From: an uncultured Litoreibacter sp.
GTDB taxonomy: Bacteria > Pseudomonadota > Alphaproteobacteria > Rhodobacterales > Rhodobacteraceae
Direction of reading: 5' to 3'
DNA length: 64,000 nt
Assembly (NCBI GenBank): GCA_947492995.1
Contig: CANLOU010000001.1
Span: 310,001 to 374,000 of the forward strand
Part shown: in pieces, positions 51,523-55,770 of the stretch
Numbering within the stretch: the stretch's first letter is position 1
Layout: each line of letters starts with the position of its first letter
Notes under the pieces: generated by a model
The model's database searches: none
Told to the model about the DNA's origin: nothing
What the model saw: the letters and a program-made list of their open reading frames with translations, nothing else
Position numbers and translations under genes: made by a program

Positions 51523-51535
51523 TATGGAGCCCGCT

Positions 51536-52294
51536 ATGGCCGAAAACTTCCGGCAAACCGACATCCTTGAAATCGCCCAAAGCGAGGGTCGCGTGTCCGT
51601 CGACGACCTCGCGGACCGCTTCAACATCTCCGTGCAAACCATCCGCAAGGACCTGTCCGAGCTGGCAGATAGCGGCCAGCTGAAACGCGTCCATGGCGGG
51701 GCAATCCTGCCCTCCGGCGTCGCCAATATCGGCTACGAGGACCGCCGCGAGCTGAACCGCGCCGCCAAAGCCGCCATCGCCAAACGCTGCGCCGCCGACA
51801 TCCCCGACAACGCGTCCGTCTTCCTCAATATCGGCACTAGCACCGAGGCCGTGGCCCGGGAGCTCCTCTCCCACCGCAACCTGATGGCCGTCACCAACAA
51901 CATGAACATCGCGCAAATCCTCGGGGCCAACCCCGATTGCGAGGTGATCGTGGCAGGCGGCACCTTGCGCCGCTCTGACGGTGGCCTCACTGGCCCGCTG
52001 ACCGTGCAAATGATCGGGCAATTCAAATTCGACTACGCCGTCATCGGCTGTTCGGCCTTGGATCAAGACGGCGACATCCTCGACTTCGACCTGCAAGAGG
52101 TCGGCGTCAGCCAAGCCATCATCGCCCAGTCCCGTGAACGCTTCTTGGTCGCCGACACCACCAAATTCACCCGCGCAGCACCCGTTCGCATCGCGTCCCT
52201 GAGGGACCTCACCCGCTTCTACACCGACGCCGCCCCGGCCAAATCCATCACCACCAAATGCAAGCGTTGGTCCACCGAGGTCGTCGTCACCTAG
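51536..52294 (+). CDS. glpR: DeoR-family glycerol-3-phosphate regulon repressor
   Basis: 252 residues. N-terminal DeoR helix-turn-helix (ILEIAQSEGRVSVDDLADRFNISVQTIRKDLSEL), then the sugar-phosphate sensor domain with LNIGTSTEAVA, AVTNNMNIAQIL and VADTTKFTR. GlpR releases DNA when glycerol 3-phosphate binds. GGAG 6 bp upstream supports start 51536 over 51524. Divergent from glpD-glpK with T-rich repeats between them. Confidence 0.9.
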   Translation: MAENFRQTDILEIAQSEGRVSVDDLADRFNISVQTIRKDLSELADSGQLKRVHGGAILPSGVANIGYEDRRELNRAAKAAIAKRCAADIPDNASVFLNIGTSTEAVARELLSHRNLMAVTNNMNIAQILGANPDCEVIVAGGTLRRSDGGLTGPLTVQMIGQFKFDYAVIGCSALDQDGDILDFDLQEVGVSQAIIAQSRERFLVADTTKFTRAAPVRIASLRDLTRFYTDAAPAKSITTKCKRWSTEVVVT

Positions 52295-52350
52295 AAACGC
52301 CCGACCATCACAAATACCAACGTCAGCTCTGCGGTCGTTCATATCTGGAA

Positions 52351-52444
52351 AAATCCGCTTCGAAGCGGATTTGGGCAAACGTCTTCGAAGACGTTTTTGA
52401 GCACGAATTGCAATTCGTGCGCACAAGGCCGTTCGAACGGCCTT
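52351..52444. repeat. Array of four perfect palindromes, 24-25 bp period
   Basis: Four different perfect palindromes: 52351-52372 (22 bp, centre CGCTTCGAAGCG), 52377-52396 (AAACGTCTTCGAAGACGTTT), 52401-52420 (GCACGAATTGCAATTCGTGC), 52425-52444 (AAGGCCGTTCGAACGGCCTT). Each pair is separated by exactly 4 bp. As RNA each forms an 8-9 bp stem with a UCGA or UGCA loop. A small CCCG-CTA-CGGG hairpin follows. Lies between glpR and a convergent minus-strand gene. Not a CRISPR, since the units differ in sequence. Confidence 0.85.
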
Positions 52445-52535
52445 CTCCCGCTACGGGCTCAATGCCGCCATTCTCTGCGTCACGGCGCGTTTTCATAGGA
52501 TGGATGGCGGTTTAGCGGGACTTTGTTGCCGTTCA

Positions 52536-53147
52536 TCAATCCACTCTTACGCCATCTAATAGTCGATACTTTCGGATGTCTCCCATAACGTCTAGTTCGA
52601 CATCCTGTCCCTTGATTTCGAAACTCCAGGGTGGCTCTACGAAGGTAGACCACAGTTTTCTACCGGATTGCCTCCAAACACCAAACTCTAATTCGGCAGA
52701 CATCAAGACATATGGCCCCGATTGGCTCCAACCCCAAAAACCGTAGTCGGTATCATCCTCCCAAAGCCTTATTTTCTCTTCGAGATCGTAGCACAGCAAG
52801 CGGTCCCCCGCTCCAACGAAAATGAGCGAAGTATCGGGCACCAAAAGAAAGCCGGGGCTAAACGCCTGTTGATAATCTTTATACTTTTGGGCGATTATGA
52901 CAGATGGCCATCCGTTGTTGGTTTCGCCTTTGGAGACGCCAAGAAAGTGAAAACGACCTTCGGTGTTGTTGACATTAATCTGATCTACAAATTCCGCATT
53001 CTTGAGATAGGATGCAAAGATGGATGGTAGGCTTCCATCCTCAATCCGCAGTTCCCAATCCCCAATTCTGATTGAATTCAACTTGCTCTTCTCCAAATGT
53101 GAGTGCGTCGGTAGGTCAATGAAATCGCACAGAGCAACAAAGGTCAA
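52536..53147 (-). CDS. Hypothetical protein (low-GC orphan)
   Basis: 203 residues, soluble, beta-rich and Trp-rich: WELRIEDGSLPSIF, FLLVPDTSLIFVGAGDRLLCYDLEEKIRLWEDD, GFWGWSQSGPYVLMSAELEFGVW, RKLWSTFVEPPWSFEI. The repeating strand pattern recalls beta-propeller-like or immunity-type proteins, but no family is secure. Codon use and GC are clearly lower than neighbours, indicating transfer. No partner toxin is seen. Confidence 0.6.
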   Translation of the reverse strand: MTFVALCDFIDLPTHSHLEKSKLNSIRIGDWELRIEDGSLPSIFASYLKNAEFVDQINVNNTEGRFHFLGVSKGETNNGWPSVIIAQKYKDYQQAFSPGFLLVPDTSLIFVGAGDRLLCYDLEEKIRLWEDDTDYGFWGWSQSGPYVLMSAELEFGVWRQSGRKLWSTFVEPPWSFEIKGQDVELDVMGDIRKYRLLDGVRVD

Positions 53148-54834: not shown

Positions 54835-55770
54835 TCAAGCGCCGCGCTGGTCCAGCGTTTTCAGCACCCGTCCGGTGACCAGCGGCGTCAAATACATCGG
54901 AATTTGGTAGCACCCGACAAAGATCAGCAGCGGGGCCATCACTTGCTCTGGCAGGGCCACCAGAAACAGCGCGATGTTGCGGTTGCCCGCCATCACGGTC
55001 AGCGCCGCCGTGCGGCCCACATCTGGCTTGCGGCGCAGAACCAAAAAGGCCAATAGCTGCATCCCAAAATTCACCAGCAAAACGAAGCCAAGCCAAAGCC
55101 AAAACTTGAGCGGCTCATCCCACAACGCCGCGTTCACCGCCGACATCAGGCCTACCACAATCACCGCCAACAGCAGCGCGGACGCGCCGTCTACGGCTTT
55201 CAATTCATCCGCCGACGGCTCTTTCCAAAGCACACCACGGATCAAGAAGGCAATCGCCGAGGACAGCCCAATCACCACCAACAACCGCACCGCCGCCATG
55301 ATAACCTCCGTGAAGCCGCCCAAAGCGGGCATCAGCCACAAGACCGGGATAACGGTGAGCGGCAAAATGGCGGTCCCGATCAACAGGAACCGCATAGACG
55401 TCGACGGCTCGAACCCCATCATCGCCACCATATTGGGTGCGCCGGAGATCGAGGACGCCATAGCGATAATCACAAGCGCCAGCGCAAACGGGCTACCCAG
55501 CCAGCCAAACGCAAACAGCACCGCAATCAACGCCAATGGAAACGCAAGCTGCATCAGAAACAGCACCTGCAGCGTCCCGAACATGTTGCCCTTCATGGAT
55601 GCTCGCATCCGCGAAGGACCAATGCGCAGTGCCGACAGGAACAACAGGCCGGCCACCATATGCGGGATGTAGGGCACCAGAACCGCGGCCAACCCGGGCA
55701 GCAGCAGCCCTGCAACTATGCCCGCGACCAGAACCCACGGACCCCGGTCGGCAAGCCAGCGCAAAATCAT
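54835..55770 (-). CDS. Bile acid:sodium symporter-like (BASS-fold) membrane protein
   Basis: 311 residues in about ten transmembrane helices, with GAPNMVAMMGFEPSTSMRFLLIGTAILPLTVIPVLWLMP resembling the BASS/ACR3 core crossover and MAGNRNIALFLVALP the second repeat. Such carriers move organic anions with sodium. Starts next to the dctM stop codon, so it is in the same operon; it may export or import an intermediate of the pathway. Confidence 0.7.
   Translation of the reverse strand: MILRWLADRGPWVLVAGIVAGLLLPGLAAVLVPYIPHMVAGLLFLSALRIGPSRMRASMKGNMFGTLQVLFLMQLAFPLALIAVLFAFGWLGSPFALALVIIAMASSISGAPNMVAMMGFEPSTSMRFLLIGTAILPLTVIPVLWLMPALGGFTEVIMAAVRLLVVIGLSSAIAFLIRGVLWKEPSADELKAVDGASALLLAVIVVGLMSAVNAALWDEPLKFWLWLGFVLLVNFGMQLLAFLVLRRKPDVGRTAALTVMAGNRNIALFLVALPEQVMAPLLIFVGCYQIPMYLTPLVTGRVLKTLDQRGA

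Follow-up and report, generated by a model that had tools for sequence, protein, structure and literature searches.

What are four perfect palindromes, each different from the others yet strictly spaced, doing behind a regulator gene? In the window, the stretch of 64,000 nucleotides of DNA analysed here, they occupy positions 52351-52444. We confirmed at this position what an earlier note had read from the letters: lengths of 22, 20, 20 and 20 bp and spacers of exactly 4 bp (GGGC, TTGA and GCAC), with a central TTCGAA in the first, second and fourth palindromes (P1, P2 and P4) and TTGCAA in the third (P3). The array and its surroundings comprise the following features.

52351..52372, no strand assigned: palindrome/hairpin P1, 22 bp, a perfect inverted repeat whose stem is nearly invariant across 17 genomic copies
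52377..52396, no strand assigned: palindrome/hairpin P2, 20 bp, a perfect inverted repeat
52401..52420, no strand assigned: palindrome/hairpin P3, 20 bp, centre TTGCAA, read from the sequence
52425..52444, no strand assigned: palindrome/hairpin P4, 20 bp, a perfect inverted repeat
52341..52456, plus strand: match to covariance model R1 (112.5 bits on plus, 69.2 on minus), the window copy being among the 18 arrays from which R1 was built
52331..52473, plus strand: stretch common to 17 dispersed copies, that is the array and flanks belonging to a larger repeat (blastn against the own genome)
51524..52294, plus strand: DeoR/GlpR-type regulator, in whose 3′ intergenic region the array sits
52536..53147, minus strand: ORF of 203 aa with no Pfam match, converging on the array

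The P1-P4 array was the sole cluster of perfect hairpins (arms of at least 8, loops of at most 4) in the 64-kb window, where the 11 other hairpins were all single. A stricter filter for hairpin style overlooks P3, which has G as its first letter, and divided the array into 2 + 1; under this filter, clusters of at least two hairpins appeared in none of five Markov shuffles of the window. RNA folding of 52330-52460 gave four separate hairpins (z = -3.25), and none of 200 shuffles was equally stable. The fold z-score, the sole-cluster status and the empty Markov shuffles rule out a chance origin of the four hairpins. A known Rfam RNA was also ruled out, as no covariance model of Rfam 15 matched the array. 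Similarly, an origin from a phage or plasmid was rejected on lack of matches: blastn with the array found none in phage or plasmid records, from which records very near the window's genome are possibly missing, and one P1-P2 pattern found none in viral contigs.

The array is not single in its own genome. With positions 52290-52560 as blastn query, we recovered 17 full-length copies sharing query positions 42-184, drawn from both strands: the window copy and 16 others with 91-96% identity. One further copy was diverged. The stems of these copies are under constraint, while spacers and flanks drift: among the 17 copies, minority letters accounted for 1 of 1224 stem letters and 1 of 136 loop-centre letters, versus 18 of 221 in the spacers and 52 of 510 in the 15-bp flanks. 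This bears on a reading without any selection on pairing, in which hairpin-templated correction keeps imperfect palindromes symmetric. Such correction predicts symmetric stem changes; among the 17 copies we found one variable stem column and no symmetric double change, though 8% of spacer letters differ, which argues against symmetry kept by templated correction alone. It would agree with the lack of a wobble bias and with a loop centre that departs from symmetry more often than the stem (see below), and we regard it as very improbable.

The arrays of the window's genome are embedded in a larger repeat, and part of this repeat was also found elsewhere in the genus, in five further species. There the repeat lacked arrays where it was read, and by eye it lies 3′ of the glpR homologue of one species. 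Hence the arrays probably rode along with it in the window's genome. As for MITE features, TIR-like ends were recognized by eye solely in the larger repeat of the window's genome. End motifs of the repeat resemble AATGTCCGCT...AGCGGACATT (L201, L204, L205, L172 and the flanks of the 17 copies).

The earlier note had also voiced a hunch of similar strings in other Rhodobacteraceae and had proposed a covariance search of the Infernal type together with blastn. Besides the 17 own-genome copies, these searches brought out related arrays: R1, whose 18 arrays include two from the window's genome, matched 22 of the 198 genomes sampled from the same family (E 1e-5), 16 of them with at least four matches and six with one or two. 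This survey scored 18 candidates per genome, and one array can count once per strand. The six carriers with one or two matches may be doubtful, the two places inspected (L164 and L165, the latter the single array match of genome G181) being unlike the rest. When more candidates were scored in ten carriers, each gave 13 to 98 matches. Three of 21 genomes of the genus matched. A class-wide sample of 289 genomes, searched at E 1e-6, gave no match outside the window's own genome except for a single weak one. The array family is multi-copy and patchy in its occurrence. Its hosts would be Rhodobacteraceae in a broad sense, to judge from the named records that carry the flank repeat (four of six) or a relative of the small protein described below.

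Patchy distribution and multi-copy bursts would also suit a selfish REP-like element, the arrays being miniature parasites whose 3′-end site reflects mere tolerance, with no host function. The residence of the window-genome copies in a larger repeat points the same way, as does the comparison of array neighbourhoods: apart from the trpB site described below, only three pairs of array neighbours between genomes were at least 79% identical. Neutral copies, however, would decay evenly, whereas stem letters vary about 100-fold less than those of the adjoining spacers and flanks. Moreover, a search of 13 carriers for RAYT (PF01797, Y1 transposase) found it in G245 and G186 and in none of the other 11, among them the window's genome. 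We consider a purely selfish element unlikely. RAYT was set aside as partner of the arrays for the same absence.

We then compared the stems of arrays from different loci. The set comprised the window copy and 66 of 80 fetched loci (L090-L169), one array per locus; 11 loci with fewer than four scored hairpins (L136, L158-L161, L163-L166, L168 and L169) were dropped, as were L154, L156 and L162. This selection favours paired stems, though up to four mismatches per array were allowed. Across 67 arrays and 36 stem pairs (2412 cells), 2054 cells held the commonest pair, 341 carried two-sided changes that still pair, 5 were G-T and 12 mismatched; column shuffles gave 70 two-sided, 62 G-T and 463 mismatched cells. 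Two-sided changes were present at 31 of the 36 pairs. In an alignment of 18 arrays, which overlaps the larger set, 97.7% of cells were paired, with 64 two-sided changes versus 17 in shuffles. Judged from these aligned letters, the arrays evolve in a structure-preserving manner. The idea of the earlier note that shape, not one motif, is selected held up where its author had said that it could fail, since homologous loci do carry compensatory changes and the block is not unique to this genome.

Each hairpin can be described as 9 pairs with a 2-nt centre or as 8 pairs with a 4-nt loop. The two central bases were non-palindromic in 32 of 268 hairpins, indicating less constraint on the loop than on the stem. 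Among 66 arrays, 21 to 25 different stems were found at each of the four positions, and the flanks were G-rich on the left and C-rich on the right. The ends of the 20-bp palindromes were mostly fixed, with TT..AA near the centre: stem letters 1 and 2 were A in 54-66 of the 66 arrays for P1, P2 and P4, and in P3 letter 1 was A in 64 and letter 2 was C in 47 and A in 12. Such palindromes could form an operator array, with dimers of the small protein binding ordinary duplex DNA at each of them, and the helix-turn-helix-like element order predicted for that protein would be in keeping. The variable stem positions nevertheless still match their partners, which independent half-site recognition does not require, and this makes an operator array quite doubtful in our eyes, less so than templated correction.

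Stems also avoid resembling one another within an array. In 60 arrays of six genomes, we observed no identical stems inside one array (2.9 expected, P 0.028), and near-identical stems numbered 14 versus 23.4 in within-genome shuffles, none of 2000 shuffles being as low. This scarcity is as expected if the four hairpins must fold without cross-pairing.

The location of the arrays was examined with simple ORF calling in which ORFs across arrays were forbidden. Outside the window's genome, 75 arrays comprised 38 in convergent, 36 in tandem and none in divergent gaps, and one with an uncalled neighbour; for comparison, gaps of at least 60 bp in a 400-kb stretch of one carrier were 27 convergent, 90 tandem and 43 divergent. 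Five of the 80 loci were omitted from this count, L165 by hand and L136, L161, L164 and L169 as below threshold, although L136 does contain four hairpins, with a 1-nt loop that escapes the fixed-loop finder. In a looser first gene calling over 93 arrays, 4 fell within ORFs and 2 had divergent neighbours. For the 18 arrays of the window's genome we counted 8 convergent, 2 tandem and 1 divergent, with 7 having an uncalled side. The distance from stop codon to array, measured outside the window's genome, had a median of 13 bp (87 of 113 stops within 30 bp). The arrays are located at the 3′ ends of genes. In tandem cases the P1-to-P4 direction agreed with gene direction in 16 of 25 elsewhere and in neither of the two in the window's genome.

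The BIMEs of E. coli are clusters of palindromes that lie behind genes, many of them in convergent gaps. The arrays resemble BIMEs in lying 3′ of genes and often in convergent gaps, and differ from them in having four different stems per array and near-perfect pairing, the GTAG and CGTC tags being the only REP motifs checked. The enrichment between convergent genes would also suit an element acting at the DNA level, with the small protein binding to extruded cruciforms or to single-stranded hairpins, for nucleoid organisation or absorption of supercoils between convergent genes. Pairing of the Watson-Crick kind with no wobble excess is in line with this, as is the winged-helix-like element order of the predicted protein. 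In tandem-context arrays, 15 stem mismatches on the transcribed strand included 3 G-T and 3 A-C; there being no G-T excess over A-C, RNA is not favoured over DNA. Each cruciform would be just 20 bp, however, and the non-palindromic centres counted above also speak against a DNA-level element, which we hold to be about as unlikely as the purely selfish one.

Clusters of several hairpins close to a stop codon may serve as terminators, for which poly A/U trails are reported to be dispensable (PMC8355165). The arrays are alike in placing several hairpins shortly 3′ of the stop codon, and unlike in forming a homologous dispersed family of fixed architecture with a partner gene. Of 123 readings, 98 showed at most 4 T in 10 nt at the last hairpin, and 43 showed at least 5 T in 10 nt when each array was scored by its best hairpin. 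With the U-tract mostly missing, the arrays are not canonical terminators.

The partner gene emerged from the comparison of neighbours. One site was common to several genomes and consisted of an ORF of about 76 aa, then an array, then trpB. Here all 16 readable loci that have the small gene showed hairpins, as did 1 of the 11 that lack it; 27 of 30 loci were readable (not G199, G207 and G219), and 24 of the 30 genomes had been chosen as carriers. A trp attenuator, suggested by the position before trpB, was rejected as a general reading, as the small gene is followed by hairpins away from trpB as well. At the 62 of 64 small-gene loci with enough flank, a perfect hairpin lay within about 100 nt downstream in 53, upstream in one and inside the gene in three; at 5 of the 64 loci no hairpin was found. 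A hairpin started within 45 nt of the stop codon in 36 of 40 small genes (one of 41, L297, which has an in-frame stop, was not located) versus 34 of 298 genes of one genome. The hairpins are physically linked to the small protein gene. At L297 (genome G240) the trpB-linked small gene carries its in-frame stop beside four intact hairpins, and the genome has two further copies of the gene.

Profile A2 detected the small protein in 90 of the 198 sampled family genomes. It was encoded by all 16 carriers with at least four R1 matches versus 74 of 182 others (p 1.5e-6), a co-occurrence partly built in, as an array beside the small gene itself counts as a match; the R1 and protein surveys are taken as covering the same 198 genomes, the visible handles agreeing. 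Counting all 22 carriers, 21 encoded the protein versus 69 of 176 others, and the carrier lacking it is 73% complete. The top 13 genomes by protein score were all carriers with at least four R1 matches, and 9 of the other 185 matched R1. Four species of the genus have the small protein and no arrays.

Family searches with the small protein gave no convincing Pfam match for 18 members (best E 0.014), no NCBIfam match for one member, nothing below E 0.19 in PHROGs for two members and nothing credible in a PDB sequence search (best E 0.026). Its predicted structure (mean pLDDT 90) has the order helix-strand-helix-helix-strand-strand, as in winged helices. Foldseek against PDB returned no match at E ≤0.001 among the best 50 of 544 matches (best E 0.36). 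No relative was found in phage records and viral contigs. On a Streptomyces plasmid (L345:2513-2704) the relative WP_327378883.1 lies behind replication genes, and its surroundings gave no function. On a Tropicibacter oceani plasmid (L344:2546-2755) a 69-aa copy carries the annotation aspartate aminotransferase, for which it is implausibly short, and a hairpin lies at its C-terminal codons and stop.

REP/REPIN-RAYT systems combine dispersed extragenic palindromes with a partner gene beside cognate palindromes. The arrays share with them the dispersed palindromes and the adjacent partner gene; they differ in a partner of about 76 aa for which no Pfam family matched, and hence no Y1 transposase domain, and in lacking the GTAG tag, which adjoined 1 of 264 hairpins. 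The CGTC tag was found 5′ of 14 and 3′ of 6 of these hairpins. CGTC REPs, according to PMC3733652, have 8-9 bp stems, A-T in the first two positions and loops of 4-5 nt, occur mostly in alphaproteobacteria and have no dedicated transposase known. The arrays may resemble them in stem length, in A-T pairs first (P3 with mostly C at position 2) and in loop size; they are dissimilar in having no adjoining CGTC tag, four different hairpins instead of head-to-head dimers, and a linked small gene. With negative tests for both tags and no RAYT in most of the carriers searched, the arrays, though REP-like, fall outside the GTAG-RAYT and CGTC classes as defined. Their protein partner is best read as new relative to known REP systems. 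Among the matches listed in a PMC search, subscription papers being outside its scope, the arrays were not described, and passages on REP prediction in PMC12306157 make no mention of them.

We conclude, with a confidence only a little above even, that the block in the window is a member of a dispersed REP-like family of 3′-end four-hairpin arrays with a new protein partner. The small protein, given its predicted winged-helix-like element order, may bind the hairpins. The array adjoining the small gene would be the resident copy from which the other arrays derive, and dispersed copies could act as a barrier at gene 3′ ends by termination, protection of transcript ends or insulation between convergent genes. 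If both strands are read at arrays, both would have to pair without G-T wobble. In the window's genome the arrays additionally ride inside a separate resident repeat. As an overall interpretation, the earlier note thus stands in its shape idea and its expectation of relatives, but from the window alone it had no view of the 17 copies in a larger repeat, the dispersed family behind stop codons and the link to the small gene. Palindromic extragenic repeats are common in bacteria, and why they sit behind genes and how they spread without a transposase is unsettled. With the partner gene, the hairpin types and array-free relatives in hand, binding, termination and spread are each testable.

More tentatively, and at somewhat less than an even chance, the system may be a new two-component one: nucleic-acid-binding proteins of about 76 aa, each with its own hairpin type, would seed genome-wide 3′-end four-hairpin arrays, as a non-transposase counterpart of RAYT-REP that could also be the partner still missing for REPs without a transposase. 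By eye, the small protein falls into at least three subfamilies with differing hairpin sequence types downstream (L283-L323, L346-L365). Judged by eye and without a tree, trpB-type genes precede AAG...CTT hairpin sets, ENxGQ-type genes A+T-richer sets, and many IECGGQ-type genes sets with inner TTTTCG...CGAAAA. The relation of array type to subfamily is not strict, as G007, G186 and G219 have arrays and only other subfamilies. Where one genome has several copies of the small gene, mostly a different hairpin set follows each. Two genomes with other subfamilies, sampled in stretches of 200 kb, showed no spread of arrays past the gene-linked hairpins, and in 400 kb of G045, which has both gene types, scattered hairpins of both types were found. 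Contig C1 of G045 also holds split arrays, with hairpins of the same style about 30-90 nt apart, near 55027-55168, 200797-200916 and 236347-236499 (L215, L223 and L224).
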